Assembly: GCA_945905815.1 (NCBI GenBank)
Contig: CAMDQH010000027.1
Location: 1 to 32,769, forward strand
DNA length: 32,769 nt
Source: Bacteriovorax stolpii
Lineage (GTDB): Bacteria > Bdellovibrionota > Bacteriovoracia > Bacteriovoracales > Bacteriovoracaceae
Direction: 5' to 3'
The notes under the pieces were generated by a model. It ran no database searches. It was not told the DNA's origin and saw nothing but the letters and a program-made list of their open reading frames with translations. The translations under genes and the position numbers were made by a program. Below, one piece after another: positions 399-28,476 of this stretch. Position 1 is the stretch's first letter, and each line of letters opens with the position of its first letter.

Positions 399-3300
399 TT
401 AATGAGTCGGAGTGAGTAGTCCATCCGCCGTAATAAAGAGCTGATCCAAATCAATATCCCCCGCCGATGAATTCTTAACATCAAGTAAAATCTGAGTTCG
501 ATCAACAAGTGAAACGGAACCAACTAATAACCATTCAAAATCAACGCCAGTAGAACCTACGGCAGTCGGCCCCAGGCCAGTCACAGCGACGGGAACTTCC
601 GGTACAACCGCCCTATTCATGCGAGAAACATTTATCACGAGATTGCTCCCAGTAGCACTTCTGACTTTAGCCCAAACATAAAAAAGACCAGATGCGAATT
701 TATTATCAAAGTGCATCGAAACTTTTTTATTCGTTGTTAAGTTCTCCATAAACGTAACATATTCAGCATATTCAGGATCATTTGTCTCAGTCACCTTCAC
801 TGATGTTTGACCAACTTCCATTGAATCATGCATTTCTGCTTCTAACTTTATGTCATCACTCCAGTGGGAATAATGATTTGATTCATGCCATTTATCTAAT
901 TGGTAAAAAACTGGCGAAAGAGGAGTTGTGCGGTCAAATAAATACACACTTCCCTGGCGACGAGTTTTAACTGTAAAAGTTTCTTCCCAAGCGCTGCCGC
1001 CAATGTAAGAGAGCTTAATTCTAATTTCTTCTTCTTCAGGGACGGTATCCTTAATGTTTGAAGAGCGCATGATTCCAGTGGCGATAACAAAACGGTCTTG
1101 TGACATATGCTTTCTTACATAGACTGGCGTAAGAAAATTTCCCTTTAATATTTCAATTTTGTACTTATCAGATTCAGCAATCGCCACACCTTTTATTTTC
1201 CATTCTGTGTTTGTCAGGAAGTAGCCATTCGCAAAGATATCTTCGTAATGACTAACCAATGATTGTGCTAACGCCGGAGTGGCCATTTGCCAAACATAAT
1301 TCTGAGGAGTAATCAATGCCCCGCGGTTCGGATCTTTTTGATCATGCTGAAAATTAGATGCCCAAAAATGCTCGGCTCCTAAAATATTTTGAAATTTGAG
1401 AATAGAAAGCCACTGTGAAGGCAGTATATTATTGGTGCCGCTATTGTTACCATTCCAACCAGGACTTACGGCCGGAGCCGCGTGATGATCGCCCCACTTC
1501 ACTTCAATCACTCTTGAATCCCAAAAGTGGCCGAAGCCAAAAGAAAATGCACTGACCATACCCTTATTCCAGTGAGAAGGAGAAAGTATATAGGCCATAT
1601 CTGTAGGATATTTCTGCCCCTTAATTGTGGTTAAAACTTCTCTCACTTTTGCATAATTATGATAAGTCGGTTCTTGAGCTCCCATCGTTTTATACTGGTA
1701 GTAGGCAGTGTAGCCCATATCAATCCCATCCCAGTCGATGGCTTCACGTAGTTGAACTGAACTATTAGTTGAACCGCCAATATAGGATAGATTGAGTGGG
1801 TCATTATAAGTGGGAGACCAGGGATGACGATTATTAATATAGTCGTAGTTTAAATAACCCTCTTTGAAAACGTTATAAAGCTGCATGACGAGCTCTGCCG
1901 AATAGTAATCCCAAAGAGCATTCAACTCACATGCTTTTTGGCCGGAATAACTGGTAGGAGTTATTTTTAGCTTATTTGTTGCACCAGTTGAAAAATAGGT
2001 AAGATCATACGTTTGAGGAATTCCAGTGTTACAAGCAGGAATAAAATATGGGGTTACACCATTGGTGTAACGATCAATAAAATCTTGAACGACGGTACTA
2101 TCAAGTAAATATCCTGATTGTAATCCTCGCCCAACATATTCTTCCAGGTACTCTCCATTTTCAAAAATCATATTTATAGGGCGAGTAATCATAGCGGTAT
2201 CTAGTTTTGTATCCAACTTTAGTGCTTGAAGCTTGGCGACTGGACCAAAGGCAACCGAGGGTGCTGGCCCGGTGAAAGTAGGACTAAAAACATAAGGATT
2301 TATAACGACGTTGCCAGGATTCACGATAACGCCAGAGTAATCGATAAGGCTATTGTTACTGGTATTGGTTAATTTATAAGCGCTATCCCAAGCACTCTTC
2401 TGTTCGAGAAAGTTAGCTGCATTGCCCTTTGGTTCGGGGCCATAGGCAATAAAGGCAACCATATCAACAAGAGGCACGTCAGTTCGCAAATTGATATAAC
2501 TACTACTGAGATTCGGAGTTGCTTCTTTCGTATGTCCTACTCCCCAGGTAACCAGCGCATAATTATTGAATTCTACTAATTCTTTTTGGAATCGAACCCC
2601 TTTTTCGTCAGGAGTTAAAGAATTATTATCACTCTGATTGATAGAATCATTAATAATGAAGTCCAAAGGCATCAGGCCTGAGCTGTTTCTTAACAGATTG
2701 TGTCCCCGTTTATATTGAGGCCGAGGAAAATGTGATAATTGATAGTAAGTAGATTGAGTGTAATAAGGGTGGCCAATAGCAAAATCTTTGGGATCAATGG
2801 CCCCAGCAATATTAACCTCATATACATCGGGAGCATTACCCGGATCAGTAATTGAAAAAGGATTTGCCGATTGAAATTCCGCATAATGAGAACTGACTAA
2901 AGAAAAGGGCAAATCATCAGTATAGAGACGGAACTCATCAATGAAGAAGTTACCTTGTAGACTCCCAATAGTGGTCACGCCACCCGATAAAGCCGTACCG
3001 GGCAGAGTAAATTCCATTTGATCATTTGACTTTCCATCGACAAAAATTTTGCCTTTTCCGGTGGAGGCATTACGGGTAAAGACCACATGGTGCCAATTAT
3101 TATCCAAGAAATGATCATAACGATTAATGCCAGCTCCTTGCAAATTAAGCGCAACTGTACTTGGACTACCACTGCTGTAATTTAGAGTAAAACTAAGACC
3201 ACTGACTCCAAAATTTGCCACCAACCCGCTACTACGAAAGAGTTCAACATTTTTGACTGCAGCACTTCGCGAATAATCGCTATTAAGTGCGGCGTGGCCG

Positions 3301-4235
3301 TTTTCAGGAAATTTCAATAAGAATTCCACTGAAAAATTCCTTGATAATGCAACTGTACCGATTGTTTGCCCTGGTGTGGTAAAGCTGCTGTCCCAAGATC
3401 CACTGTTGCCATAAAGACCTGATACGATGGTTCCTGGACCGGAAGTAAAATCAGTCGCAGAAACTGGGCGAAAAACGGGAGCAGTAATAATAATCGGAGT
3501 CGACCATACATCAACTTCCACATTATTCTCATCACTTCTTCTTAAGCAAAGATAGTAAATTCCGGGAGAGATGTTTTGATTTTTAATATTCCACGTATAA
3601 GTGTTATTGGTTGAAGATTCTAAAATATCTCCGGTAATCTTAATACCCTGAGAGCATGAGCCGCTCGAAACCGAAGCCAAGTAAATATCCAGCTCTAAAG
3701 TACTAAGCGCATGGTCGGTATCAGACCAGCTTATTTGCATGGTTGAATTGTTAGCATAAGAAAATTCGGCGGCATTCGGAGTTAAAAAAGTATAGAGGCT
3801 TGGATTAATCACATTGATTTGGGGGGACCAAATATCAACAACCGCATTAACCCCGTCATTCATGGAAAAACAAATGAAATTGGTACCAAGAGGCATGAGC
3901 GATGAATCAATCATATAATCAAGATGATTGCCCTCCGCCAGACCAATACTCAGTGGAAAACCAGAAGAGCAATTGGTATTAAAAAGACTTTGTGCGTAGA
4001 CTGATAATGTCACTACATTATCTGGGTCCTCACCCTTAAAAGACACTGGAAAAGTCGTCCCTTGCGAGATTGTTAAATTAGAAACCGGCAATGAGAAGAA
4101 ACCACTTGGAATAGCATTGCCCGAAACAACAGGATCATCAATTTTCTGCAAAATATCTTTATTCTTAGGAATAGCTGGGGCATCAAAGCAAGAAGCCAGA
4201 AAACTCAATAAGAAAAGTAATAGGATTTTTACCAT
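399..4235 (-). CDS. Giant LamG-domain lipoprotein with a large hydrolase-like middle region (last gene of operon)
   Basis: A secreted lipoprotein of 1278 residues. The N-terminus MVKILLLFLLSFLASC is a signal peptide with lipobox LASC and the lipidated Cys at 16. Phe follows the Cys, so outer-membrane sorting is expected. Two Ig/FN3-like beta domains lie at about 45-255. A LamG/concanavalin-like domain lies at about 265-445, with the typical NNWHHVVFTR strand and a closing FIDEFRLYTDDLP strand. Residues 470-1060 are a large uncharacterised region with many Trp/Tyr/Asp-rich stretches (for example AIDWDGIDMGYTAYYQY) that could be a glycosidase-like barrel; this is a guess. The C-terminus (about 1120-1278, LEAEMHDS ... 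GLFYVWAKVRS) resembles CBM6/35-type jelly rolls. It overlaps the upstream gene by 7 nt, with AAGGGA 7 nt before ATG, so it is translated within the same operon. The gene at 28477 is a paralogue. Confidence 0.8.
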   Translation of the reverse strand: MVKILLLFLLSFLASCFDAPAIPKNKDILQKIDDPVVSGNAIPSGFFSLPVSNLTISQGTTFPVSFKGEDPDNVVTLSVYAQSLFNTNCSSGFPLSIGLAEGNHLDYMIDSSLMPLGTNFICFSMNDGVNAVVDIWSPQINVINPSLYTFLTPNAAEFSYANNSTMQISWSDTDHALSTLELDIYLASVSSGSCSQGIKITGDILESSTNNTYTWNIKNQNISPGIYYLCLRRSDENNVEVDVWSTPIIITAPVFRPVSATDFTSGPGTIVSGLYGNSGSWDSSFTTPGQTIGTVALSRNFSVEFLLKFPENGHAALNSDYSRSAAVKNVELFRSSGLVANFGVSGLSFTLNYSSGSPSTVALNLQGAGINRYDHFLDNNWHHVVFTRNASTGKGKIFVDGKSNDQMEFTLPGTALSGGVTTIGSLQGNFFIDEFRLYTDDLPFSLVSSHYAEFQSANPFSITDPGNAPDVYEVNIAGAIDPKDFAIGHPYYTQSTYYQLSHFPRPQYKRGHNLLRNSSGLMPLDFIINDSINQSDNNSLTPDEKGVRFQKELVEFNNYALVTWGVGHTKEATPNLSSSYINLRTDVPLVDMVAFIAYGPEPKGNAANFLEQKSAWDSAYKLTNTSNNSLIDYSGVIVNPGNVVINPYVFSPTFTGPAPSVAFGPVAKLQALKLDTKLDTAMITRPINMIFENGEYLEEYVGRGLQSGYLLDSTVVQDFIDRYTNGVTPYFIPACNTGIPQTYDLTYFSTGATNKLKITPTSYSGQKACELNALWDYYSAELVMQLYNVFKEGYLNYDYINNRHPWSPTYNDPLNLSYIGGSTNSSVQLREAIDWDGIDMGYTAYYQYKTMGAQEPTYHNYAKVREVLTTIKGQKYPTDMAYILSPSHWNKGMVSAFSFGFGHFWDSRVIEVKWGDHHAAPAVSPGWNGNNSGTNNILPSQWLSILKFQNILGAEHFWASNFQHDQKDPNRGALITPQNYVWQMATPALAQSLVSHYEDIFANGYFLTNTEWKIKGVAIAESDKYKIEILKGNFLTPVYVRKHMSQDRFVIATGIMRSSNIKDTVPEEEEIRIKLSYIGGSAWEETFTVKTRRQGSVYLFDRTTPLSPVFYQLDKWHESNHYSHWSDDIKLEAEMHDSMEVGQTSVKVTETNDPEYAEYVTFMENLTTNKKVSMHFDNKFASGLFYVWAKVRSATGSNLVINVSRMNRAVVPEVPVAVTGLGPTAVGSTGVDFEWLLVGSVSLVDRTQILLDVKNSSAGDIDLDQLFITADGLLTPTH

Positions 4236-7200
4236 GAGAAGTTCCCTTGTGGATCTTCCTTAATAAAACTCGAACAACGTCCGCCTACCATGGCCGTGGA
4301 TGAATCTGGAGTGACTGCGGAGTAAGAGTAGCGTCCGGTAATCGCGGCAGTGGCCGGGCAGGCCACGTAAGATGAGTAATCAGCACATGGAAAACTTCCA
4401 ACAATAAAAGTCAGACCAAAAATTGAAGTATCGAGAGGAACGTTACTGCTTTGATACTGGCTTGAAACTTTATACGGCACATACACTCTTGAATTAGCAT
4501 AATCCGGTAAGCTTGTTTCGGAATTCAAGGCTGCGGCCTCATTTGCCAGTGGATGTGGTACTCGGGGAGAAAACCTAATATCATCAGTATAAACGCTTCC
4601 AGACTGACAAGAAGTATAGGGAGCTCCTCCACACGACAATGGCAAACCAGTGGTCAGAGAGATAAAAGGCGAAATAGCATCTGCAAAGCCATTACTAAAA
4701 TTATTAAACTGAGAATGATTGCTGTAAAAAAAAGGATAGTGAGCAGTAGTCACTCGCAGACTGGCATAATTATAAAGGGCAGTAATTTTACTGCTTGTAG
4801 TATTCATATCCTCAATGGATCCTGCCATATTTGAATTATCAAAATTGGAAAGGTTACAGCTCGTTTCATTAGTACAGGTGATATTATCAGCGGTCCATTC
4901 TGAAGCGCTGCCAATCGTGTCCTGGACACCATAACGTCCCACACATTGAGCACTACTACCGGGACCAGAAGATCCTGTTGCAAGATAAGGTCCAATATAA
5001 GAACGAAGATTCGTATTACTCTCCACGGCTGAAGTGGCAGGATAACGAATATTTCTAAAGTCTAATTGATTGACGAGCACATTTGTTGTGAAAGCACTTT
5101 TAGCTGCGACCGTTGTTGCGACAGAACATCCTCGCTCGATATTTCCCAGCTCCACGTTTCGATAATTGAGTGTTTCAAGAGCCGGAGCATTCACTGCCAC
5201 ATACTCAGCTTTTGTTGGAAGACGAGGCGTCAAGGAAATATTGGTTGGAGTTGAACCACCACTGGTAAACTTTAAAGATCTCTCACCGCAAATTGAATTC
5301 AGTTTGCTTTTAGAAATGTCTCCCAGTGGTGGAAGATTAGCATCATTAGATACTGCTTGCTTTGCAATCGAGGCAGAAACACTATCAAGCGCTTGCCATG
5401 AGCCGGAATAAATTTGGCAAGTGTCACCACCAGTGATGACTCTTTTATAACGAACGGTATTGTTAAATAATGCAGTATTGGCCGAATTTAAAGTCGGAGT
5501 ATCTACTCCAATACAATCCCCTGCCTGAACTCCACCACCGAAAACACCTGTTTCCGTTTTGTTACATAAGCTACGTGAGAAGCGACAGCCGGCCTCAAAT
5601 CGATCAATTAATAGATGTCCACCGAAATCAAAATATTTTCCGGCGTTTATGGTTTTGGATAAAAGACCATTAAATGGGCAGCGATAATTATTGTTCCGAT
5701 CATAACTTCTTTTTAATCTCTTACAAGTTTCACGATTGACGTTCCAAGGATGGATGCTTGCCATATTTCTTGGAGGCAAAATCACTTTCACAACATAATC
5801 ATTTAGCAGAGTCCCCACTAGGGGCAAATTGTTGCCATTGAGAACCGGAACAACTTTATACCAAAAGGCACGCGCCTCAACTCCGCTTGGATCAGTCACT
5901 TGAACTGCCGGTAAAGTATAATCACTAAAAGAGGCCAAATTAAGAGTATCGACACCAACATAAAAGGTACTGGCCTTGACCGGAGTGGTTGATACCTTCG
6001 TCCAATTGGCATCGTTTTGTGATGGACGGCCGCTAGCATGATCTGGAGTCAAATACGGTTGTCGATAAACATCATAGCCCAATGTCGGATCAGTCTGCCC
6101 AATAGAAAAGGTTTTCCCTGGTTCATTTTCAAATTCATAATCCAACCAAGACAAACGAATGAAACCCTGGCCACCTTTAGATGAATTGGTATTGGAAGCT
6201 GGAGGCAAGCCCAGGACATCGGCATGTTCAGCAGGTAAACTGAAATCTGTTTCAATATCATCTTGAAACTTTTGCCCCGGATTCATAAAGACTTCCGGTA
6301 TCACTCGGTTCTGCGGCAATGGATCCGTGGCAAGACCATTCATCTTTTGTCCTAAGGCCACCATCGAAACCCATTCACCAGGAACTAGATTCTTTTGAAG
6401 AGTGGTGCAAGAAACTTCTACTGAATCAGTCCCGTTAAAAATACCCAACGTAGGATGACCGTAGATTGGTCGGACCCCGACGGAATAAGTAACGCCTGCA
6501 GGAAAATTATTAAAAGCATACTTAAAGGAAGTTTCTGCTAAAGAATGGAGAACTTGATAACTGCTTCCTAGCCAATTTACCGTTGGCCCGGCAGTAATAT
6601 ATACTTGATAACTAGAAACATTACCAACAGTCGGTGGTGTCCACCTGACTTCAAAACCATCAGTACTGATGTTGTGGCAAGGAGTTGAGTTAGGAGCATT
6701 TAAAAAACTTACCTGTGAGGCCGGAATAAATGCCGCCACCTTACAAAACCAGGAATTATTCGGATAAGTTGATTCGCCCAAGTTATAGCTTAATCGCGAT
6801 TCAACTTTAAAGCAGTACTCTTCATTTAAGGTCAGACCCAAAACCCGAATTGATTTGGCAGCTCCAGCAGGAACAGATTCCAATGTAAGACCATCGCCGT
6901 TAATTGTTGTGGTAATTTCACTGGCGCTGGCAGGAACGCCGCCCTGGGTTTTATTGTATCCCATAATTTTATAGCTGTTAAACGCTCCATGGATTCCATC
7001 GGGATAATTACTCCAACGTAAAACGACATTATCAATTTCACCATCAATAGCATCCATACCTGTAAAAGGGGCCACGAGTGGGATGGTTGAAACAGGTAAT
7101 AAAACTCCCGCTCCTTCGGCTCCAATGACAGCGCAATTAGCACCACTACAAGCGGCAACACCAACGACGTAATCTGTCACTTGCAAAGGAACATAAAAAG

Positions 7201-8170
7201 TATGCGAGGTCTTGGTGGTATCAAAGATGTCAATTGTCTCTACTGGCAATCCGACCGTTGGTGTAATAATCGGAAAGGCAGTGTTGCTTGTATAAAAAAT
7301 ACGATAATAAGTGAATGGGCCTGATCCAGCATCCCAAGAAATAGTAATATTATTAAGCCCAGACATATTACTGGGAACTGTAGCGGTCTTAATGCCAGCA
7401 AAAGTTACATTTACTTCACCCAATGTCGCCTTAGACATTTCCATTTTGTTTGCATCTTCTCTTGATGGAGCATGGCCATCCAGAGCGTGAACATAAAAGT
7501 AATAGAGAGTGTTTTCCTCTAATCCATTAATGACATAAGAAGTCGCATTGGGATCAGCGATAAGGACCGTTTGAACTGAACCACCAAATTTTTTGTAGTA
7601 AATTATATAACCAGTTATAAAATTGGGATCAAAGATGGAATTTATCGATGCAGCTTGTGCTTTTGACCAATTAATTTTCAAAGCAGTATTTGCCAGCAGG
7701 CCACCAACGTTTTCAACAGATTTAATTCCATCATAAACAGGATGTTCTACACTAAAAGTGGTAGCAGAAAGTTTTTTGGTATTGGCATCCATGAGTCCTG
7801 TCACAGAATCATATAATCTGACTGAGAAAAAGTTAGTCTGCCCCGCATCCAGTCCCCTCACAATGATATTGACCTTGCCGTTTGAATCGAGCTTCACTGA
7901 ACTGCTGAGGGTTGAGGCCACTGGAGCTGTAAAATTTCCATTTTTAAAAACAAGAAAGCTGTAATTATTGGAGATGGTCGTGACTGGATTGACGACTACT
8001 TGAACTGCATCATGAGCAACAGGAAATACATTTTGGATACCAGAATACAACATTTGAAGTGACTCATTGACGGCCACAGAATTATCCACTTTAGACGGAT
8101 CTTCAATGGTGCCCTGGCAGCCCATAAATCCCAAAAGGATAAACAATACTAAGATGAACTTCATGTCCAT
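4229..8170 (-). CDS. Giant FN3/FGE-like lipoprotein
   Basis: A secreted lipoprotein of 1313 residues. I place the start at the ATG at 8170 (MDMKFILVLFILLGFMGC): GAGGT sits 7 nt upstream, whereas the longer reading frame from 8215 would put a non-signal stretch in front of the hydrophobic core. Lipobox Cys is residue 18, followed by Gln. After the Cys comes a tether motif GTIEDPSKVDNS shared with two paralogues. Fibronectin-III-like domains lie at about 144-250, 254-365, 366-480 and 497-600, with a degenerate one at 669-790. A Cys-containing joint (HPWNVNRETCKRL, about 806) leads to a C-terminal formylglycine-generating-enzyme-like (SUMF1, C-type lectin) fold: RLPTKAEYVAV at about 982, YGVQDTIGSASEWTAD at about 1079, terminal GGRC at about 1297. 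It is the third gene of the minus-strand operon. An adhesive or binding role is inferred; no catalytic activity is claimed. Confidence 0.85.
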   Translation of the reverse strand: MDMKFILVLFILLGFMGCQGTIEDPSKVDNSVAVNESLQMLYSGIQNVFPVAHDAVQVVVNPVTTISNNYSFLVFKNGNFTAPVASTLSSSVKLDSNGKVNIIVRGLDAGQTNFFSVRLYDSVTGLMDANTKKLSATTFSVEHPVYDGIKSVENVGGLLANTALKINWSKAQAASINSIFDPNFITGYIIYYKKFGGSVQTVLIADPNATSYVINGLEENTLYYFYVHALDGHAPSREDANKMEMSKATLGEVNVTFAGIKTATVPSNMSGLNNITISWDAGSGPFTYYRIFYTSNTAFPIITPTVGLPVETIDIFDTTKTSHTFYVPLQVTDYVVGVAACSGANCAVIGAEGAGVLLPVSTIPLVAPFTGMDAIDGEIDNVVLRWSNYPDGIHGAFNSYKIMGYNKTQGGVPASASEITTTINGDGLTLESVPAGAAKSIRVLGLTLNEEYCFKVESRLSYNLGESTYPNNSWFCKVAAFIPASQVSFLNAPNSTPCHNISTDGFEVRWTPPTVGNVSSYQVYITAGPTVNWLGSSYQVLHSLAETSFKYAFNNFPAGVTYSVGVRPIYGHPTLGIFNGTDSVEVSCTTLQKNLVPGEWVSMVALGQKMNGLATDPLPQNRVIPEVFMNPGQKFQDDIETDFSLPAEHADVLGLPPASNTNSSKGGQGFIRLSWLDYEFENEPGKTFSIGQTDPTLGYDVYRQPYLTPDHASGRPSQNDANWTKVSTTPVKASTFYVGVDTLNLASFSDYTLPAVQVTDPSGVEARAFWYKVVPVLNGNNLPLVGTLLNDYVVKVILPPRNMASIHPWNVNRETCKRLKRSYDRNNNYRCPFNGLLSKTINAGKYFDFGGHLLIDRFEAGCRFSRSLCNKTETGVFGGGVQAGDCIGVDTPTLNSANTALFNNTVRYKRVITGGDTCQIYSGSWQALDSVSASIAKQAVSNDANLPPLGDISKSKLNSICGERSLKFTSGGSTPTNISLTPRLPTKAEYVAVNAPALETLNYRNVELGNIERGCSVATTVAAKSAFTTNVLVNQLDFRNIRYPATSAVESNTNLRSYIGPYLATGSSGPGSSAQCVGRYGVQDTIGSASEWTADNITCTNETSCNLSNFDNSNMAGSIEDMNTTSSKITALYNYASLRVTTAHYPFFYSNHSQFNNFSNGFADAISPFISLTTGLPLSCGGAPYTSCQSGSVYTDDIRFSPRVPHPLANEAAALNSETSLPDYANSRVYVPYKVSSQYQSSNVPLDTSIFGLTFIVGSFPCADYSSYVACPATAAITGRYSYSAVTPDSSTAMVGGRCSSFIKEDPQGNFSW

Positions 8171-8253
8171 TTGTAATACCTCATAACCTCTTATCGAGGG
8201 ACGGGAGGTAAACATTCGAGATATTAGCGGGTGGGTAAATTATGCCGACGAGA

Positions 8254-11200
8254 TTAGTAGGTATAGGAGCAGCGGGCACCAGCTAAAGGGGTTTGTCCGT
8301 CTCCAATTAACCAGAATAAGTTAAACTTACTCAAAGTACTTGAAAAAGGTCCTCCTGCTTGTAAAACGGTCGGTACAGGATAATTGTTTACAAAATCCCA
8401 AGGTGCCCGATAGTTACTGTCAGTAAAAATCGGCATCGTATTGTGGTCTCCGCAGCTGGCCCCGTTGGACGGAACGGGAATCCCCAAGATAGGAGAGAAG
8501 CATGAATAGAGACTGTAGGCCTGCGGACTAAAATAAGAAGAATTTAAACCGGCGTAACTCAGGTTATTTAAATAACTATCTTGCGCCCAGTTACTTTCAA
8601 TATTTGAACCGGTCGACCCGGCCCCACCAGACATTTTATCCCGCAGCCATTCCCAACCATTACCAATTAAATCATAAATTTCATGGCGGCTGACACAACT
8701 AGAACGTTGACCAGTCAAATTACCAGAAGTCACAGCGCAACTATTTTCTGTTAAGTCATTAGCATCTTCAAATTCAACGGCCAAGCGGTATTCCAGGAGT
8801 CCCATTAAGCGTTTAGATCTAGTGCCCGTCACTTCAGATCCGTTTTGATTTATCTGCATAGAAGCAGTTCGAGAATTATTACGACAATAATCCCAGGCTC
8901 CCTCCACACCTTGCTGGGTAAAGTCTTGTTTGGGAGTTTTTCCAGGTTCATTATAATAAGTTGCGCCGACACCATTGTTAATTTCATAACGGTCGACAAA
9001 TAAATGTTTTCCGAAATCAAATTTTTGAGCGCTACTACCTAATCCATAGGCAGTACAGGAAAAATTGTCAGAAGAGTTTTGGTAAGAACCATTTAAATAT
9101 TCTTCGCACACTTGACGGTTAGCTTCCCAACGATGAATTAAGGACATGTATCTTGGCGGAGCTATAATTTGAACTTTTGAAAATCCCTGTGTGGGAATTG
9201 ATGGATAACTTTTAGTCGCTCCAACGATTGCTGCTTGGTTGTTGCCCGTATAAATCGGAGTTACGAGATAGTAATATTCAGTGCCAGGAATAGCAGTGGA
9301 GTCTTCATAATAGTCAGTTAATACATCTGTTGCAATCGGGGTATTCATATCGTAGTTTTGCCAGGCCAATCTTCTAAAAATCATGTAACCATAAATCGTA
9401 GTGGCCAGGCCCGTAAACGGTTTCCATTTTAAATAAACGGTGGAAGTGGACAAATCAGAATAGGCCTTAATTCTTTCCCATCCTGCATGATTTACGTTTT
9501 GAGATCTTGTCTCCGCCGTCAATGGCAAGACTTTGGTAATGGTACTTACGCCATCAAAGTAAGTTGCGACAAAATTCGCCGGTGAATTGCTAATCAGCCC
9601 AGCTGCCACAGCGGTAAAAGTAACGTTGACTGAACAGCTGGCGGAAGAGGCCAGTACACAACTGGCAACACTACTGGTGTAGCGTGCGGCACCGGGTCCG
9701 GTGAAAGAAAAATTAACAGTTGAAGCGAGACCTGCCAGATTTGTAACAGAAATAGCATCGGCCACGGTCCCACCAACAGCTGCAAATCCTAAATGTTTAG
9801 AAGCAGCGTTGTTGGCAATAACAATTTGTGTTGTATAACCAGAAGTCATATAGGCACTTCCAGAAATAATTTTCTTATTATAATTATCGTTACTGATAGT
9901 GGCATCAAAATCATCAAAGTCGTCGGTATTGTCATAATTAAAACTAAAATCAACATTGTACTGCTTAGGTGTCATAGGGGGATTGAATGCAACATCAATC
10001 GTTTCAGACTGGCCAGGTCCAAGAATAAAATTGCCGGTAGTACCGGGGCCGCTAATGGCAACCACACCAGGAGTGGCAATGGGATTAATCACTGAAGCGA
10101 CGTTATAAACCGCATTCCCTTTGCCAGAATTAGTAACCACCATACTACCTGTTGCCGGAACATTCACCAATGTCGTGAATGACAATGAAGCAGGTAAAAG
10201 AGTTAAATAACCAAGTTCTTTTGCTTCGGCCCGAAATGCAACAATCTTAGACACAGTTGCCGGGGCCATTGCTGCAGTCGTGTAGGTAAAGTTCACTTCC
10301 CCCTGATAAACACCAACACATTGAGGGTTGAATTGAACCGGAAAGCCACAACTGGCCCCATTTTCGAGAATACTCAGAGGTAAACATGTGCTCGTACCTA
10401 AGATCATTCCTTGAGTCGGTAAAAGATCTAATCCACAAAGAGGAGTGCTGGTCATCGTTACGCTATAAGCAGTCAAGGTCGCAGAAAAATTTCCACTGTG
10501 TTGAATGTTCACAATCCCGATTTCATCACTATTAATTCCGACTGGAAAATTTCCAATAAGTTGAGGAAATTTCCAATGAATTGAAGGAACCCCTCCAGCA
10601 AGGACTCCAGGAAAAACAAAGGTAGCATTGAAGCTCATGAGCGGATCCTCAAGACTTCTGGCCTCAATACCATCATCGTAAAGCACTTGAAAATCATAAG
10701 CATAAGTAAAATTGATACCTCGGTAACTTACCGCTAAGGCCAGAGTACATTCTGCCCCCGGAGGAAGCCTGCGATCGGCGGGGCAATCTCCCCCAACTCC
10801 AGGATAACTGCCAGCAAAGGGACCGAATGAATTGGCATAAAAATAAGGCGAGCGAAGGTTCTCAGATAAATCACGAGCGGTTCCACTTCCAACGTTTTTA
10901 ACTTTTACTAAAATCGCATTTGAAATATCTGTACTTAAGATAGAATTGTCCAAAGCCATTTGGTTTACGCTAACAAGTTCCAGTTTGGCCTTACGAATAG
11001 AGCGACCAAAGACCGTGATAACTTTTTCGACTGTCTCAATACCATTGTGATAGTTCATTGTAAGGGTTTCAGAAAAAACACCTACAGAAGTCGGTTGAAA
11101 AAGAAAATTTATACTACAAGACTGCCCTCCGCGATTAATCCGAGTGACTGCAAAGCAACCTGATGATTGGTTCGCACTAATCGCGCCACCTGAGCCGAAA

Positions 11201-12480
11201 GGCGTAATCGAAATCGGATTAGCATCCATACTTCCAATATTGGTTAATACCAGAGTGAGAATTTGAATAGAACCAACACCAATTAATGAGAATTCTGCAA
11301 CATCATCAACCATATTTGTTTTTAAAAGGGCAGCATTGAGTCCACGACCTTGAAAGTAATCGGCGAGAGTTAAAGTTTTACTGCCTTTACCACCTTCATA
11401 GTCGATAACGATTCCACTTTTAAGTAATACCCCGGTAGTCACAGGACTAAATTTAAAGGAGAGATCACAGATTTCATTAATTTCAATATCTCTACCCACA
11501 CAAGTACTTCCTACGGGATCAAAAGTAAAAGGTGGAGTAAGGGTCACATTCCCAACAGACAGTTTATCGTACCCGACATTTTTAAAAGAGATTGTAACCG
11601 TATCAGATCCATTTTTGGGAACGATACCAAAATCATAAGAAGGATTTGTATTATTAAGCTCTAAGCGGCCTTCGATAATATCCGTGACTGCTTTCAATAC
11701 TGCTGGAGCCATGGCAGTGCTAATGCCATTGTTGTAATTCATTCTCAGTGTTGAACTCTTTGGGCCAATTGACTGGGAATTATAGGTTACATCTACTAAG
11801 CAGGTTGTTTTGCCGGGAATTGTTAGGCCACAGGTTCCATTTGTTCCAGGATAAGTTCCCCCAGTAAAATTAAAATCATTCAATGGAGAAAAAATCATGG
11901 AAACTGAATTGGCGGTCAAATCTCCGGAGTTTGTCACCTTTATTATTTTCTTGGCCGTATCCCCTATTCCAAGCGCACCATAAAAATAAATAGGCAATTC
12001 TGGCTGAAGATTTGCCAACATTCCGGCCTTGCCTTTAACCACCACTTGACTGGTAGTCATACTTACTCCGTTCTCAAATCGAATTGGAAGTAGATCTTGA
12101 AAATTTCCAGATTGTGTTGGCATGAAACGTAGAACAACTTTACAAGTTCCACCCGACATTAAAGTAGCGCCACAATTTCCGCCCAAACCAGGAAACTCTC
12201 CACCCAGATAAGAAAAAGGACCTGTAGGATCAAGTGCCCCAAAGCTAATGGTCGTAGCATCAAAGACACCCGGATTGGTCACTTCAAACTCAATATCATT
12301 TACGGTATTGACTACCACTTCACCAAATTCAATATTTTCAGAGCCACTAAACTCAAGGCGACCAAGTTTTTTTTCATCAAATTTGACGACATTAGATTTT
12401 TCATTGCAACCGAATGACAAAACTAACAAGGCAATAAGGAATAGATGGTAAAGCTTAAGGAACAAAACTTCCCCCCTCAT
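8254..12480 (-). CDS. Giant ASH-repeat (choice-of-anchor D) lipoprotein with FN3 and FGE-like C-terminus
   Basis: A secreted lipoprotein of up to 1408 residues. Lipobox LSFGC places the lipidated Cys at 25 (Asn next). About eight repeats of roughly 100-120 residues fill residues 40-1000. Each ends in a 'C-x-hydrophobic ... F-x-P-x-x-x-G' signature (GTCKVVLRFMPTQSG, QSCSINFLFQPTSVG, ASCGFPVQFNPQCVG). This is the pattern of ASH/choice-of-anchor-D immunoglobulin-like domains. One FN3-like domain (about 1000-1105) follows, then the joint LIHRWEANRQVCEEY and a compact FGE-like domain with RLMGLLEYRLA at about 1224, YDLIGNGWEWLRD at about 1268 and terminal GARC. The C-terminal module is shared with its neighbours while the N-terminal part is different, a domain-swap pattern. 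It overlaps the upstream gene by 26 nt from the ATG. A TTG at 12465 preceded by AGGGGGGA is an alternative start that gives a more usual signal peptide length. Confidence 0.85.
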   Translation of the reverse strand: MRGEVLFLKLYHLFLIALLVLSFGCNEKSNVVKFDEKKLGRLEFSGSENIEFGEVVVNTVNDIEFEVTNPGVFDATTISFGALDPTGPFSYLGGEFPGLGGNCGATLMSGGTCKVVLRFMPTQSGNFQDLLPIRFENGVSMTTSQVVVKGKAGMLANLQPELPIYFYGALGIGDTAKKIIKVTNSGDLTANSVSMIFSPLNDFNFTGGTYPGTNGTCGLTIPGKTTCLVDVTYNSQSIGPKSSTLRMNYNNGISTAMAPAVLKAVTDIIEGRLELNNTNPSYDFGIVPKNGSDTVTISFKNVGYDKLSVGNVTLTPPFTFDPVGSTCVGRDIEINEICDLSFKFSPVTTGVLLKSGIVIDYEGGKGSKTLTLADYFQGRGLNAALLKTNMVDDVAEFSLIGVGSIQILTLVLTNIGSMDANPISITPFGSGGAISANQSSGCFAVTRINRGGQSCSINFLFQPTSVGVFSETLTMNYHNGIETVEKVITVFGRSIRKAKLELVSVNQMALDNSILSTDISNAILVKVKNVGSGTARDLSENLRSPYFYANSFGPFAGSYPGVGGDCPADRRLPPGAECTLALAVSYRGINFTYAYDFQVLYDDGIEARSLEDPLMSFNATFVFPGVLAGGVPSIHWKFPQLIGNFPVGINSDEIGIVNIQHSGNFSATLTAYSVTMTSTPLCGLDLLPTQGMILGTSTCLPLSILENGASCGFPVQFNPQCVGVYQGEVNFTYTTAAMAPATVSKIVAFRAEAKELGYLTLLPASLSFTTLVNVPATGSMVVTNSGKGNAVYNVASVINPIATPGVVAISGPGTTGNFILGPGQSETIDVAFNPPMTPKQYNVDFSFNYDNTDDFDDFDATISNDNYNKKIISGSAYMTSGYTTQIVIANNAASKHLGFAAVGGTVADAISVTNLAGLASTVNFSFTGPGAARYTSSVASCVLASSASCSVNVTFTAVAAGLISNSPANFVATYFDGVSTITKVLPLTAETRSQNVNHAGWERIKAYSDLSTSTVYLKWKPFTGLATTIYGYMIFRRLAWQNYDMNTPIATDVLTDYYEDSTAIPGTEYYYLVTPIYTGNNQAAIVGATKSYPSIPTQGFSKVQIIAPPRYMSLIHRWEANRQVCEEYLNGSYQNSSDNFSCTAYGLGSSAQKFDFGKHLFVDRYEINNGVGATYYNEPGKTPKQDFTQQGVEGAWDYCRNNSRTASMQINQNGSEVTGTRSKRLMGLLEYRLAVEFEDANDLTENSCAVTSGNLTGQRSSCVSRHEIYDLIGNGWEWLRDKMSGGAGSTGSNIESNWAQDSYLNNLSYAGLNSSYFSPQAYSLYSCFSPILGIPVPSNGASCGDHNTMPIFTDSNYRAPWDFVNNYPVPTVLQAGGPFSSTLSKFNLFWLIGDGQTPLAGARCSYTY

Positions 12481-15400
12481 CTTCTTCTACCATCGCAGCA
12501 CAACGTCCACCCACATCAGGATATTTAAGGTTCGATTCAGTCAGCGTATAACTATAGCGTCCCTGGGCATTGATATTGGGTTCACATGATTGGGAATTGC
12601 GGTAAGAAATACCGTAGACAGCGTCACTTAAACTTTGGCTATTGCAAGGGAAGCCTCCAACAACATAACCAGCTGTTTGACCATTAATCGAGGCTATATT
12701 AAGAATAGAGAGTCCAATACTACCGTAAGCATTCAAATCAGTTTGCGGTGCTTGTAGATCAATTCGGCCAAAATCGTTTCCAATACTAGCTGCAGAAATG
12801 GTGGTAGCACCGGTTGTGTTCCATCCTAACGAAGGAGCCGCGAGAGTAAATTTCATACTATCACCATCACAATGATTAGGATCCTGACAAAACAGCGGAA
12901 CACCACTGAACTTAGAAAAAAATGGTGCTGTGGTAAAAACATTTCGAGAGTTAGCAACTGCCGACCCAGTCGAGCCATAATTGTAATAAACGGCATGTTG
13001 ATAATAGAAGCCGTTACCATAAATGTTAGTATTAAGTAGGGTCTGTGTCGCTCCGTTCACACCAGCGGCTGCACTATAGACATAGAAACCGGTACGATTT
13101 GGTCCCACCGAGGTGGTGAAATTTAATGTTTTAGTCACGTCACCTCCCAGAGTTAGAGCATCTGAGATAATGTTTGGATCTTGAGTGTATGAACTTGGAT
13201 AGCAATCTTCCGCCGTACTACAGATAAATTTTTCACCACTCCACTCTGGCACGTTCCCCATAATATCCTGAACACCATATTTAAAGGTACAGGCAGCAGT
13301 ACTATTTAATCCTTGTGAACCACTAGCAAAAACGGGCCCAGTCCCGGCGACATCAAGTCCAGTGGTTTCCCAGGCAGTGGTGCGCGGATAACGAAAGTGT
13401 TTTAAATTTAGTTCGTTTTTTTTCTGACCATAGTCTCCATTGCTGGCCTTCGAAAAATTCAATTCATGGTTGGCCAAACCACCTACCGGTCGTGTACCCG
13501 TCGGAGCATAGCCATGCTTGGTATTGCAACCCATGTTGTGACGACTACCGATGGCCGCTTCGTAATGATTAGAGTAATTTTCCACTTCAATCGGATCGGC
13601 CATCAAGGCCACATATTCTTGCTTACGGGGAAGTCGCTTAGACAGAGTCTTAATGAGCCCATCCGAGGGAGATTTTAAATTAACAGAAAAAGTGCCACAG
13701 ATCTTGCTCATGTTTCCCTGGGAAATCATGGTAAGCGGAGGAAGACCTGCCTTATTTGAGATTGCAGTGCCGGCAACGATAGAAAGATTTCCTCCAGCAG
13801 TCGTTATCGCCTGTTCAATCGTTTTCCATGCCCCACCTTCACGATAAAAACATGAATCATTGGGCATTAGAGTAGTCCACGACCATGACCCTCCTTTTTT
13901 AGTCGCACGATTGTAAAACACCGAGCCATCGGCAGCTGTATTGGGAAGGGTATGCAAATTAATACAAGCACCGTCTTCAACGCCAGTTCGCTGATTTGAT
14001 GTAAGAAAAGATTCAGCGGCGCACCCCGGATCATTTAAAGCATCGCAAGCTAAGGCCGCACGATTTTCGTGCGTTCCAACACTAGTACCGTTATGACAGG
14101 TCAGGAGCGCCCGCGAAAAATTACAACCAAGTTCAAAGCGATCAATTAACAAATGACCTCTAAAGTCTAAATAGAGCGCACCAGCGGGTGCAAAACGACG
14201 GGAACCAATGCCAGTGTAGGCACAACGGTATTGATTATTTCGATCAGGGATCTTTCCTAATCTTTCACACGACTCTTTATTTAACATCCACCGATGGGCC
14301 ATAGCAGTGTTACTTGGAGGAGTTACAATTTTAAGAATGTAATCGCCTGGAGTGGAAAGTAAATCAACCTTAGTCGCGCCAATATAGGGTTCAACTTTAT
14401 ACCAATAGACTTGAGCATCATTTGCCGAGACAGGGGAAGGAATTGTGTAATCTACAAATTCGGCCTGATAGAAGTTTCGATTAGGATCGTTGAAGCTGAT
14501 TAGATTGGCCTTAATTACCGAGACACCAGTGACATCAACCCAACCAGCAGTTGTAGCAACAGGCGGAGTGGTAGAATGAGAATTGGCATATGGCATACGA
14601 AAAACTTTGTAGCCAACTGTTCCCGAAAGGTCACCGGCCGAGAACAAACTATTATCTTGAAAAATAAAATCTTTCCAAGCAAGTCGTACCATGCGACCAC
14701 CAATACTGGTTTTAGTGGAAGATAAAGTTGCACCTGTATAATTTTTCTTAAGCAATGAATATTCAGCGGGGAAAGAAAAATCCGGTTTGATAGAGCTGTC
14801 ATCGACTCCGCGGGATGAAACTTTGAAGGGTAATCCAGCATCATCGATTTCTTGTCTGGTCGCAAAGAAATCATTCTTACTTGAAAAGCTCTCTGGCACA
14901 CTCCCTTCAATAACATCATCCTTTAAACCAATCGCCATAATAGATGTCCAACCTTGTGGAACGGCTTTCTGGATTTCAATGGTGCAGCTAAAGCTTGAAG
15001 CAATTTGCCCAAAAAATAGATTATTACCAACATCTTCAAAAACAGTGCGAACTGCGACTTGAACTTGAGTCCCTGCAATTTTCCCCGTTACGGTTTTTGA
15101 ATACTGAGTATTGGCATCATGGTTGCCCTGAAGGTTTACAGTGACAGCATTATTCCAATCTAAAGGCCCCACACCTTCTTGCAGAAGAATTTCATAGCGC
15201 GAAAAAGTTCCTGATGATGGACCCTTCCATTTTACGGTGAAACCATCAGTCGTTGGTGATTGACAATACCTGGTACCAGTTCCTGGGCCAGGAGAAAGTA
15301 AATATGTTTCACTCAGGTAAGTCGCAGGTCCAGGTTGCTGATACTGAGGCACGCCACATTTCCAGGCGGTATTTTCGTACACTTTTGTAGGTGCACCGGC

Positions 15401-16789
15401 AGTCAGAGAAGACTCAACCTTGAAGCAATAATTTGCACCTTCAGTGAGACCAATAACTTTAATTTTTTTACTCGATTTTGTAGGTGTACTAAACAATTTC
15501 TCTGTCGGAGAAAGATTCGTTAGTATTGATTCCGCACAAAGCATAGGTGGGAGACATTGCTTCATCGTTACCCGAAAACCATCGGTGGCACCTAGGTTTT
15601 CATTTGCACCGTAAATCCAACTTAACTCAACTGCATCGACTCCAAATTCAGCAAGTTCTGCTCCAGCGAAGGGAGCAACAGGAGGTGTGGTGGCAGCATC
15701 TTGGTAAGTGTCTTCACCTTGATAATCACCACAAGTATCATCACATGCAACTACGAAAACTCGATAAGTGGTATTGGGAAAATTCACTGGAAACTGATAG
15801 GAAGAAACATTGGGATTATTGGCCGAAACTGCGACATCAACATAACTCATTGTGATGGAGTCAACGGGAGGATTAATGCTAGTGGTGCTCGTATTAGTGG
15901 TGAAGAATATTCGGTATTTAGTAAAATTACCACTGGCCGGCGACCATGAAGCAATTAAATTCGATAGACCATTTGCATTATTGGGAACATAAGCCGTGTT
16001 GATTCCATTAAAGAGAATAGGACGATCAGGATAGGTTGATTTGGCCAGAGTGACTAAATTCTCATCTTCAACAGCAGGATTCTGTCCATCTTTGGCGCTA
16101 ACCCAAACATGATAGAATGTATTTTCTTCCAGGCCAGTCAGTGTGTATGAAGTAGCATTAGGATTAGCAATCAAAACAGAACTAATCGCACCTAAACCTT
16201 GCTTTTGATAATAAATGCTATAGCCCGTAATATCATAAACCGTGGTCGGAGCAAAGGCATTGGCACGTGGTCTAGCGGCGCCAGCTGGTGCCCAAGTCAC
16301 AGTTAAAGCTGATTTTCCAAGTGATCCTTGTACATTCTCAAGCTTGATGGCGCCATTAAATAAGGGAGTTTCATATCCCAAAACAGGTAAGACTATGGCA
16401 TTGGTGTTATAATCTTCGAGTAAAGAAACTCGGTTGCGCGCTCTAACGACTAATGAATAAGGAACAGTCCTAAAATTCAGATTATTAATCATTATATTTA
16501 GTTTGCCGTTGGTATCGATACCAGCGTTTTCAGAAGCTAAAGATGCAGCAGATTGTGTGAAATTACCATCGACATATAAATTGTAATCAAAGATCCCTGA
16601 GCCACCACTGGCCGGTTCGAAACTAACTTGAAATCCTCTATGAGAAATGGCACGGGCCGAAGAAGCTCCGTTGAAGTTAAAGTCAAGGACCTGATTTTGA
16701 ATAGTCGACTTATCAATCTTTTTGGGATCTTCAATCGTTCCCACGCACCCAACGAGGGTTAGAAGATATATAAACATCCATGTTTTCAT
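12455..16789 (-). CDS. Giant FN3/FGE-like lipoprotein (first gene of operon)
   Basis: A secreted lipoprotein of 1444 residues from the ATG at 16789; a GTG at 16792 is also possible, since AAAGGA lies 9 or 6 nt upstream. The signal MKTWMFIYLLTLVGC has lipobox LVGC with the Cys at 15, followed by Val and the tether motif GTIEDPKKIDKS. FN3-like domains lie at about 142-255, 256-368, 370-480 and 505-610, with a longer degenerate one at about 700-820. The joint AMAHRWMLNKESCERLG lies at about 827. The FGE-like C-terminal half shows RLPRKQEYVAL at about 1052, YGVQDIMGNVPEWSG at about 1172, then GGFPC, GRYSY and GGRC near the end (about 1427). Many Cys in this half suggest disulphides after export. 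It is collinear with the products of 4229-8170 and 23781-27983. Binding or adhesion is inferred from domains; the partner is unknown. Confidence 0.85.
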   Translation of the reverse strand: MKTWMFIYLLTLVGCVGTIEDPKKIDKSTIQNQVLDFNFNGASSARAISHRGFQVSFEPASGGSGIFDYNLYVDGNFTQSAASLASENAGIDTNGKLNIMINNLNFRTVPYSLVVRARNRVSLLEDYNTNAIVLPVLGYETPLFNGAIKLENVQGSLGKSALTVTWAPAGAARPRANAFAPTTVYDITGYSIYYQKQGLGAISSVLIANPNATSYTLTGLEENTFYHVWVSAKDGQNPAVEDENLVTLAKSTYPDRPILFNGINTAYVPNNANGLSNLIASWSPASGNFTKYRIFFTTNTSTTSINPPVDSITMSYVDVAVSANNPNVSSYQFPVNFPNTTYRVFVVACDDTCGDYQGEDTYQDAATTPPVAPFAGAELAEFGVDAVELSWIYGANENLGATDGFRVTMKQCLPPMLCAESILTNLSPTEKLFSTPTKSSKKIKVIGLTEGANYCFKVESSLTAGAPTKVYENTAWKCGVPQYQQPGPATYLSETYLLSPGPGTGTRYCQSPTTDGFTVKWKGPSSGTFSRYEILLQEGVGPLDWNNAVTVNLQGNHDANTQYSKTVTGKIAGTQVQVAVRTVFEDVGNNLFFGQIASSFSCTIEIQKAVPQGWTSIMAIGLKDDVIEGSVPESFSSKNDFFATRQEIDDAGLPFKVSSRGVDDSSIKPDFSFPAEYSLLKKNYTGATLSSTKTSIGGRMVRLAWKDFIFQDNSLFSAGDLSGTVGYKVFRMPYANSHSTTPPVATTAGWVDVTGVSVIKANLISFNDPNRNFYQAEFVDYTIPSPVSANDAQVYWYKVEPYIGATKVDLLSTPGDYILKIVTPPSNTAMAHRWMLNKESCERLGKIPDRNNQYRCAYTGIGSRRFAPAGALYLDFRGHLLIDRFELGCNFSRALLTCHNGTSVGTHENRAALACDALNDPGCAAESFLTSNQRTGVEDGACINLHTLPNTAADGSVFYNRATKKGGSWSWTTLMPNDSCFYREGGAWKTIEQAITTAGGNLSIVAGTAISNKAGLPPLTMISQGNMSKICGTFSVNLKSPSDGLIKTLSKRLPRKQEYVALMADPIEVENYSNHYEAAIGSRHNMGCNTKHGYAPTGTRPVGGLANHELNFSKASNGDYGQKKNELNLKHFRYPRTTAWETTGLDVAGTGPVFASGSQGLNSTAACTFKYGVQDIMGNVPEWSGEKFICSTAEDCYPSSYTQDPNIISDALTLGGDVTKTLNFTTSVGPNRTGFYVYSAAAGVNGATQTLLNTNIYGNGFYYQHAVYYNYGSTGSAVANSRNVFTTAPFFSKFSGVPLFCQDPNHCDGDSMKFTLAAPSLGWNTTGATTISAASIGNDFGRIDLQAPQTDLNAYGSIGLSILNIASINGQTAGYVVGGFPCNSQSLSDAVYGISYRNSQSCEPNINAQGRYSYTLTESNLKYPDVGGRCAAMVEEDEGGSFVP
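12463..12480 (-). promoter_or_regulatory. G-rich ribosome binding site and alternative TTG start for the ASH lipoprotein
   Basis: Between the ATG at 12480 and a TTG at 12465 the minus strand carries AGGGGGGA about 5 nt before the TTG, while only a weak purine stretch precedes the ATG. Starting at TTG would give MFLKLYHLFLIALLVLSFGC, a standard lipoprotein signal, and reduce the overlap with the upstream gene to 11 nt. Confidence 0.45.
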
Positions 16790-16868
16790 CACGACAAATC
16801 CTTTGTCTTAATATCACCTTGGATGAAACGGTCTTTTTTGGAATTAACTTAATACGAAGAATTTGATC

Positions 16869-17365: not shown

Positions 17366-17698
17366 ATGAATGATATTATTCCTGTTTTTAATCAGATATG
17401 TGTTGAAAAAAATGTCTCACGAGAAAAATCTCAAATCCTACGCAAGTGGGTAGTCAACATCATCAAGGCTTTGCCTGAAGACTCCCCTGTCCGTATGGAT
17501 AGCTTCTCGCATGAAGGTGCTAATTATTTTTTATTAAGTTTTCCCATGACCGATATATTTACCAATCCCTGGGACACTAAAAGTTTGAATCTGTCCACCA
17601 CACTCTATCGCGCTTCTAAAGAAATAAATTTTGTCCCAAGATTTCAGAACCAGGGAAACTTTTCTGGCGTCACACTTAGAGTTAAGCTCGAAGCTTAA
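17366..17698 (+). CDS. Hypothetical protein, 110 aa
   Basis: This family is not recognised. The start is the ATG at 17366 (MNDIIPVFNQICVEKN), 2 nt after the preceding stop, with AGG 6 nt upstream; the longer frame from 17318 lies inside the upstream gene. It is cytoplasmic in character: a helical N-terminal half (REKSQILRKWVVNIIKALPED) and a beta-rich C-terminal half ending in GVTLRVKLEA. Its stop overlaps the stop of the convergent MotB-like gene by 2 nt, leaving no room for a terminator between them. Confidence 0.65.
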   Translation: MNDIIPVFNQICVEKNVSREKSQILRKWVVNIIKALPEDSPVRMDSFSHEGANYFLLSFPMTDIFTNPWDTKSLNLSTTLYRASKEINFVPRFQNQGNFSGVTLRVKLEA

Positions 17699-20565: not shown

Positions 20566-21155
20566 AAAATATCATGATCACCCTCATTCTGAGTCTGTTT
20601 ATTTTACCGGCCTCGGCCGATGAACAGATTAATGGTGGCTTCATTCGGAGAATGAATTTTTCACTTGCCATGACTTCCCTGTCGCTTTCAGAGCAGACGG
20701 ACTCAGCTGGAAGTTATTCGGGTACGGCCATAAACCTGGCAGTGGAATTTCCTTTTGTTCAGTCGATTAAGCGAGAGTACTTCATGAAAAGTTCGGTACC
20801 GGTAGTATCCGCTGCCGGTGAAGGACTCTACTCGGCTATCGTGGGAATGAATAATTATCGGGACAAACTGTCGGCTCCCTTCCGCTTGGAAGACGGCGCA
20901 AGTGAACTTAAAATCAGGCCTAAAATGCAATACTATTGGGGTCCACATTTTGGAGCAGGTGCGGCAGTCTACAAAATAGGCACCGCCAAAAAAAGTGATT
21001 TTGCCTTCATCATAGGCGCTCAAGCGGGCGCAATTAAACCACTAACCGCACCTTGGGGTTTAAAGCTTGAAGGTGGTCTTTCCAAAGGATTCGGGATCAA
21101 CTCGGGATTCCTGACCTATTTTGTCGGTGGTGGTGCCACATACGATCTCGACTAA
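20562..21155 (+). CDS. Small outer-membrane beta-barrel candidate
   Basis: A protein of 197 residues with a signal peptide (MKNIMITLILSLFILPASADEQ, cleavage after ASA). The mature part has a run of short amphipathic strands with Gly and aromatic girdles (FGAGAAVYKIG, FAFIIGAQAGAIKPL, FLTYFVGGGATYDLD). This pattern fits an 8-10-strand barrel such as the OmpW/OmpX-size class; exact family not assigned. The start overlaps the previous stop by 4 nt (ATGA) with GGGTGAG upstream, so translation is coupled. Two consecutive exported barrel-like proteins suggest a hetero-complex in the outer membrane. Confidence 0.75.
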   Translation: MKNIMITLILSLFILPASADEQINGGFIRRMNFSLAMTSLSLSEQTDSAGSYSGTAINLAVEFPFVQSIKREYFMKSSVPVVSAAGEGLYSAIVGMNNYRDKLSAPFRLEDGASELKIRPKMQYYWGPHFGAGAAVYKIGTAKKSDFAFIIGAQAGAIKPLTAPWGLKLEGGLSKGFGINSGFLTYFVGGGATYDLD

Positions 21156-28424: not shown

Positions 28425-28476
28425 TTTTATTCGTAAATACTTCTCACATAAAACCGACTAGATGATGGGGGGTTCA

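Follow-up and report, generated by a model that had tools for sequence, protein, structure and literature searches.

Here we describe the gene at positions 8254-12480 (minus strand) of contig CAMDQH010000027.1 of Bacteriovorax stolpii (assembly GCA_945905815.1), whose first 32,769 nucleotides constitute the window analysed here. Its product, which we call P3, is a predicted lipoprotein in which a stalk of eight ASH (choice-of-anchor D) repeats carries a tip resembling the formylglycine-generating enzyme (FGE). Judged from gene order and from the phylogeny of the tips, P3 belongs, as an old and conserved partner, to a pair of lipoprotein genes associated with a motor and is not the product of a local swap. 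The reading that we favour, with a probability of about 0.48, is that P3 would be the ASH-stalked half of this pair, serving a flagellar-type motor without flagellum in contacts with surfaces or prey. The interest of P3 thus lies in its company, a family of giant, two-part lipoproteins tied to a stand-alone flagellar-type rotor and stator. A preliminary description of the same DNA had made no connection between P3 and the motor genes of the window.

The ASH stalk and the shared tip

The preliminary description counted about eight ASH repeats, and eight were delineated with our own ASH profile (independent E values, i-E, from 5e-28 to 1e-7; residues 37-962; starts spaced 110-148 residues), whose matches in P3 are partly by construction, the profile having been seeded from P3's own repeats. 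Curated models agree, since P3 lies far above chance and above the cut-off of NCBIfam choice_anch_D (NF012200; E 3.4e-36, 124 bits, cut-off 45, 7 stretches), and Pfam recognizes it through PF22544 (E 3.7e-28, 98.1 bits, cut-off 25.5), PF22073 (9.5e-16) and PF15780 (6.6e-10). No convincing ASH repeat was found with our profile in the three FN3-stalked neighbours P2, P4 and PP (best i-E 0.06; Table 1). At least two cysteines are present in 7 of the 8 repeats of P3, which fits its placement outside the cytoplasm. The canonical lipobox is [LVI][ASTVI][GAS]C, from which the SFGC of P3 deviates, so that its lipidation is likely rather than certain; a looser pattern is found in 22/24 aligned ASH-type sequences (rows). 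A search by peptide pattern for named relatives of the whole P3 found none, and P3, taken by itself, combines known domains in a new order.

By profile comparison, P3 and its FN3 neighbours have the same tip module, as the preliminary description had proposed: nine ASH-type and 26 FN3-type C-termini align in hhalign with probability 100 and E 2.3e-53 over 272 columns. A plain protein search of its own genome with P3 confined the similarity with the three neighbours to about residues 1058-1174 (E 4e-11 to 3e-6), which correspond to the joint and the neck, and the tip profile matches residues 1108-1407 (i-E 4e-24 and 1e-33), a match that is not independent because the profile was built partly from the P3 row. 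From the neck onward, the P3 tip comprises 301 residues versus 515-621 in the FN3 neighbours. The profile searches thus exclude both a lack of ASH repeats and an unrelated C-terminus.

The signature of FGE consists of D-x-x-G-N-x-x-E-W together with a terminal G-x-R(C), and the enzyme has a closely spaced catalytic C...C pair after a G-G motif. By pattern, the first element occurs in 8/10 ASH-type and 9/25 FN3-type tips (in P3 itself it reads D-L-I-G-N-G-W-E-W) and the second in 10/10 and 23/25, respectively. These motifs, along with weak matches of the tip profile to EgtB and FGE, suggest that the tip is FGE-like. They would also speak for an active formylglycine-generating or EgtB-like enzyme at the surface, an alternative that we consider very improbable: a C-x(3-6)-C after a G-G type motif was found by pattern in 0/10 ASH tips, which is the reason why the heads are taken as non-catalytic, and Pfam FGE-sulfatase (PF03781) stays below its cut-off in all four window proteins (16.9 bits for PP, cut-off 23.3; no match at E 0.1 in P3, P2 and P4). 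The AlphaFold model of joint and tip (8 rows) has a mean predicted local distance difference test score (pLDDT) of 35.8. Tips of the FGE/lectin kind also suggested the target of a diversity-generating retroelement; this candidate was rejected, no reverse transcriptase being found in the genome (PF00078, E 0.01), and a check for repeats in 399-16792 found only two short two-copy ones.

An old combination of stalk and tip

The preliminary description took the same tip on a different stalk as a sign of domain shuffling, and this is possible at a deeper level of the tree and rejected within the operon. That the C-terminal module of the neighbours was recently fused to an ASH stalk in this very operon is suggested by the homologous tips in adjacent genes. 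However, the domain-level phylogeny does not derive the P3 tip from its operon neighbours and places it among the ASH-stalked tips of other genomes. In the unrooted tree of 56 joint and tip rows (two of 58, shorter than 300 residues, were dropped), seven ASH-stalked tips, those of the window, G043, G102, G053, G042, G114 and, from a family other than the window's, G086, form one group with support 96/99, and the three FN3 tips of the window group with the FN3 tip of G043 (100/100). Holding the P3 tip with the FN3 tips of the window costs 41 log units and is rejected by the approximately unbiased (AU) test (p-AU 0.0015), in a test set completed with the G043 row once the tree had been seen. The grouping and the test speak against a swap made inside this operon; with the pair recurring at the 23 loci judged (see below), we give a recent local fusion hardly any credence.

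Three stalk changes are required in the best tree and two or three in the bootstrap trees, while the starred branches force only one. On this tree, between one and three fusions of an ASH stalk with the tip are possible, all of them much older than this operon; as the tree is unrooted, either stalk may have come first. As for the paralogues P2, P4 and PP, their grouping together with that of G043 points to a local expansion, the window locus having three FN3-tip genes versus one or two in the other loci read.

Some ASH lipoproteins at first seemed tipless (drawn from L071-L074 and L077-L082, also L061 and L075; L numbers designate loci and G numbers genomes). Six of them (g1) align with the ASH tips in hhalign with probability 95.6 and E 1.3e-8, which corresponds to a reduced tip, and for four others (g2) the alignment is unconvincing (probability 6, E 0.007); g1 and g2 match each other at E 2.7e-54. 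In G049, an ASH partner (L051, 6592-10008, minus strand) stops after the FN3 joint and carries no tip.

A conserved gene pair at motor loci

At motor loci, all 23 ASH genes whose upstream side is in view adjoin a gene for an FN3-type or tip lipoprotein, which lies directly upstream on the same strand in 22 of them, with gaps of -58 to +28 bases; in the exception, L044, the partner is divergent. This count leaves out L092 (a non-motor site), L147 and L150 (other family, no tip) and the ASH genes of L123, L127 and L156, cut at their upstream end, and includes three cut partners (tip without FN3 repeats at L042 and L065, FN3 without tip at L076). Over 21 loci, the distance matrices of the two partners correlate with r 0.86, as high a value being reached in 0/2000 permutations, and with 0.82 once the distance of the FliF-FliG fusion described below is removed, the correlations with this fusion being 0.50 for the ASH and 0.70 for the FN3-tip proteins; all these values are raised by shared ancestry, and several of the partners are truncated where a contig or stretch stops. 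The co-assembly of tips that the preliminary description envisaged is made more likely by the conserved adjacency and by this correlated divergence.

With regard to the different heights of the tips suggested there, the stalks differ (eight ASH versus five FN3 repeats), but the total lengths of the partners are within 138 residues of each other in 14 of the 15 pairs judged uncut. As the preliminary description had remarked for P3, the tether motif is lacking on the ASH side: C-[VIQ]-G-x-[IV] is present in all 27 FN3-type rows having a lipobox (27 of 29 rows) and in none of the 22 ASH-type rows having one, so that the two partners may be sorted or anchored differently. In one sub-group (L061, L105, L110, L111 and L120), a shorter, tipless FN3x5 lipoprotein of 633-670 residues lies beside the FN3-tip gene.

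The distribution was followed in a phylum sample of 368 genomes, from which stretches were fetched around tips and around FliF-FliG genes. The ASH-type C-terminus is found in 104/368 genomes at E 1e-8, on FN3, ASH and other stalks, and the fusion in 65/368; both occur together in that tips are present in 42/65 genomes with the fusion versus 62/303 without it (Fisher p 1e-11, kinship ignored). Among the nine strongest tip matches of the sample (at least 300 bits), seven of which helped to build the tip profile, eight have a FliF-FliG gene no more than 16.4 kb away.

The stretches read around FliF-FliG genes cover 63 of these 65 genomes (G134 and G038 were left out, as were weak second matches in G152 and G270), several of the contigs having only 5-6 kb. 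They gave 71 sites, 50 in the window's family and 21 in others. The same-family sites comprise PEGA in 45, the barrel in 41, MotB in 32, MotA in 30, an ASH lipoprotein in 26, an FN3/tip lipoprotein in 26 and both in 22, where the ASH call at L155 relies on the C-terminal profile alone and an FN3-tip protein at L043 is booked as ASH. The other-family sites comprise PEGA in 20, MotA in 18, MotB in 18 and the barrel in 16. Outside the window's family, the FN3/ASH pair was seen in G086 only, while the motor core recurs in other families.

In other loci and families, the motor core has giant open reading frames of about 1400-2800 residues in its vicinity, cut by contig or stretch ends (L118, L119, L122, L131, L132, L138, L144, L145, L147, L150, L152 and L153), among them, in family f11, the ASH-rich giants of L147 (ASHx7) and L150 (ASHx17). 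Furthermore, L087, L088 and L089 carry arrays of two or three tip proteins whose stalks were not identified as arrays of ASH or FN3 repeats; the stretches read there contain no motor genes.

A probable rotor fusion beside the pair

The rotor gene of the window encodes a protein of 652 residues that Pfam barely recognises (MgtE_N, E 5.5e-4); among 30 relatives, MgtE_N is found in 20 and FliG_N in 2. Its C-terminal part is FliG by profile and by fold: a PDB search with the profile of the 30 relatives reaches FliG at E 8.8e-9, and residues 331-630 match the FliG fold with Z 11.0 (Foldseek E 9.2e-5). For the N-terminal part, a likeness to FliF is indicated by the modelled fold only, residues 25-207 matching the RBM3/collar of FliF with Z 10.1 over 98 residues (3.4 A), apparently with only one ring-building motif, and a helix at 239-268 is a likely membrane span in the model. 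It is this order, ring-building fold, membrane helix and FliG, that leads us to read the protein as a FliF-like/FliG fusion. The mention in PMC6079021 of a motile, chemotactically defective FliF-FliG fusion mutant of Salmonella indicates that a rotor still works when these two parts are fused.

Elsewhere in the genome, a FliF (C20:8705-9853) and a FliG (C20:7271) of the ordinary kind lie close together, and the genome also has FlhA and three MotB genes outside the window, four in all; the window locus is therefore a second set. Three further FliG_C matches are located in short frames of 144, 144 and 259 residues (C65:13385-13702, C22:2994-3311 and C32:7820-8125). The closest named relatives found for the MotA of the window (the first 12 at 45-53% identity) belong mostly to Bacteriovoracaceae, and further titles include Halobacteriovoraceae, Bdellovibrionales, Bdellovibrio and Deltaproteobacteria. 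One of these relatives, the cultured predator Bacteriovorax sp. BSW11_IV (L111), carries on its contig a row of FN3-only, FN3-tip and ASH genes that runs divergently from motA; PMC4511183 describes this strain as one of several obligate predators whose polar flagellum is sheathed.

Proposed role of the module

We propose that a module composed of an FN3-stalk-tip gene followed by an ASH-stalk-tip gene would be established at the motor locus of Bacteriovoracaceae-type bacteria, the motor consisting of a MotA/MotB stator and the FliF-like/FliG rotor, accompanied by the PEGA-TPR protein and by what may be a small barrel of the outer membrane. Both lipoproteins would undergo export, be held in the outer membrane by a lipid anchor and be displayed outside, where a non-catalytic head of the FGE/C-type-lectin kind, borne on long beta-sandwich stalks, would bind rather than catalyse. 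The ion-driven rotor would move, strain or position them through the periplasmic PEGA-TPR and the outer-membrane parts, and the outcome may be gliding or prey contact.

Several points weigh against this reading. On the side of the rotor, the profile of the 30 relatives reaches FliF in the PDB only at E 0.13, below significance; the AlphaFold model of the fusion has a mean pLDDT of 67.9; unrelated OsmC/Ohr proteins match residues 25-207 nearly as well as FliF does (Z 9.7); by the fold tool's own caution, a helical match below Z 13, such as that to FliG, may reflect a common arrangement; and Pfam FliG_C (at E 0.01), YscJ_FliF and YscJ_FliF_C match the flagellar proteins of the genome and not the fusion. 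On the side of the lipoproteins, the surface location and the lipidation of P3 are predictions, and its lipobox is atypical. Three of the ten ASH tips (L046, L070 and L076) fall outside the main ASH group, one of them on a very long branch, and a single ASH origin is recovered in 0/200 bootstrap trees. Regarding the distribution, the 62 genomes with tips and no FliF-FliG match, among them G044 with an ASH-tip gene, indicate that tips also serve elsewhere, and neither lipoprotein type is present at 20/50 same-family sites in the stretch read, G048, G130 and G151 having neither over the full 20 kb.

These last observations would suit free-standing adhesins lying beside motor genes by chance, without mechanical link, which we consider rather unlikely, since the proximity is repeated in different gene orders, tips are present in a far larger share of the genomes with the fusion than of those without it, and ASH-rich giants stand beside the motor in family f11 too. 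As for the motor genes, the MotAB pair of the window could also serve the ordinary flagellum, and the whole locus could be its accessory, with extra stators, a second rotor and lipoproteins on the sheath or at the pole. The ordinary flagellar set of the genome with its four MotB genes speaks for such an accessory, as does the single sheathed polar flagellum with which Bacteriovorax strains are described in a section of PMC4511183, and in B. bacteriovorus three stator pairs feed one flagellum, according to a statement cited in PMC12827227. Against it, the fusion has its own FliG and ring-building fold and would thereby duplicate rather than extend the flagellar rotor, and among the 14 open reading frames of the window scanned with Pfam the only flagellar families matched were MotA and MotB, with no match for export apparatus, rod, hook or filament; altogether, an accessory role appears improbable.

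The favoured role of P3, as the ASH-stalked half of a motor-served pair, would be part of a broader and more tentative proposal, on which we remain somewhat doubtful: a hitherto undescribed trans-envelope machine in which a flagellar-type rotor and stator would move or load a matched pair of surface lipoproteins for gliding or prey grip, in predatory Bacteriovoracaceae and their relatives. Such a machine, if real, would go beyond a rearrangement of known domains and mean that the flagellar rotor has been put to a second, independent use. If the link holds, a flagellar motor working without filament would bear on the origin or reuse of the flagellum, as well as on the way in which these predators travel over surfaces or grip their prey.

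Layout of the window

The minus-strand run is ordered P4, P3 (its second gene), P2 and a LamG gene, with P4 and P3 overlapping by 26 bases (Table 1). A scan for promoters and terminators gave counts no higher than in shuffles, so that the operon structure relies on gene overlap and spacing. Homologous LamG proteins, 399-4235 (minus) and 28462-31839 (plus), terminate both arms of the locus, and their profiles recruited no further protein from the stretches searched. The PilZ-domain protein is a possible cyclic-di-GMP input; such a protein recurs in only one other stretch (L085).

Table 1. Coordinates of P3, its domains and the accompanying genes in the window.
Feature	Position	Strand	Content or basis
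P3, predicted lipoprotein, 1408 residues	8254..12480	-	8 ASH repeats, FN3 joint, neck and FGE-like tip
P3 signal peptide, lipobox-like ...LLVLSFGC (Cys 25), without C-V-G-T-I-E-D tether	12406..12480	-	sequence
P3 ASH repeat 1 (residues 37-127)	12100..12372	-	own ASH profile, i-E 4.9e-28
P3 ASH repeat 2	11761..12039	-	own ASH profile, i-E 5.4e-24
P3 ASH repeat 3	11425..11679	-	own ASH profile, i-E 3.1e-14
P3 ASH repeat 4	11074..11349	-	own ASH profile, i-E 2.6e-14
P3 ASH repeat 5	10726..11007	-	own ASH profile, i-E 4.3e-11
P3 ASH repeat 6	10306..10563	-	own ASH profile, i-E 1.4e-10
P3 ASH repeat 7	9970..10200	-	own ASH profile, i-E 1.1e-7
P3 ASH repeat 8	9595..9849	-	own ASH profile, i-E 2e-9
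P3 FN3 joint, opening with the shared G-W linker (residues 998-1085)	9226..9489	-	i-E 3.2e-5; homologous in neighbours
P3 neck, H-R-W-x-x-N-x-x-x-C ... V-D-R-Y-E (residues 1108-1174)	8959..9159	-	motifs and profile
P3 FGE-like tip, D-L-I-G-N-x-x-E-W and terminal G-A-R-C	8260..8979	-	motifs and profile
P4, FN3x5 stalk with same joint and tip, tether CVGTIED	12455..16792	-	directly upstream of P3
P2, FN3x5 stalk with tip, tether CQGTIED	4229..8215	-	profiles
PP, FN3x5 stalk with tip, tether CVGDVQN, divergent arm	23781..27983	+	profiles
LamG-domain probable lipoprotein, last of minus-strand run	399..4235	-	homologue at 28462-31839 (+)
MotB, stator (plug and OmpA domain)	17695..18465	-	Pfam
MotA, stator	18467..19258	-	Pfam
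Conserved locus protein of unknown kind	19294..20565	+	at 34/50 same-family FliF-FliG sites
Small possible outer-membrane barrel	20562..21155	+	PF13505 at E<0.1 in 2/22 relatives
PEGA and TPR protein	21209..21817	+	Pfam
FliF-like (RBM3/collar by fold only, membrane helix)/FliG fusion, rotor	21814..23772	+	profile and fold
PilZ-domain protein between PP and right LamG gene	27973..28404	-	Pfam

Comparison with known systems

Searches of the open-licence literature on FliF/FliG outside flagella, on gliding in Bacteriovorax and Bdellovibrio and on ASH or choice-of-anchor lipoproteins found no description of such a locus. With the choice-of-anchor D/ASH (HYDIN-like) proteins, P3 shares repeats that exceed the NCBIfam cut-off; it differs from ten other ASH proteins fetched from the phylum (L047-L050 and L052-L057), which lack a tip of this kind and, as far as the stretch was read, have no motor genes nearby. 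The locus resembles the rotor and stator of the flagellum in FliG (by profile and fold), probably in the RBM3/collar of FliF (by fold), and in MotA and MotB. It differs in that the FliF-like part and FliG are fused, with the Pfam FliF models missing the fusion, and in that the open reading frames scanned carry no export apparatus, rod, hook or filament family, the genome possessing a separate flagellar set.

The Agl-Glt machine of Myxococcus and Bdellovibrio is alike in combining a MotAB-family motor, a TPR periplasmic protein and outer-membrane parts; Agl motors are not known to have a FliF/FliG rotor, in which the window locus differs from them. The machine for type IX secretion and gliding combines an ion-driven motor with an FGE-like lipoprotein, GldK/PorK, and the tip profile finds PorK weakly (E 0.24). 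Type IX secretion was considered for the window and rejected, since the GldK equivalog reached only PP, with 13.8 of 350 bits, and GldM had no match in the genome at E 0.1. GldK is not known to bear a stalk of P3's kind. What the two share is an FGE-like lipoprotein in the company of an ion-driven motor of the MotAB kind, and by this analogy P3 would work most like GldK with GldLM, without being a member of that system.

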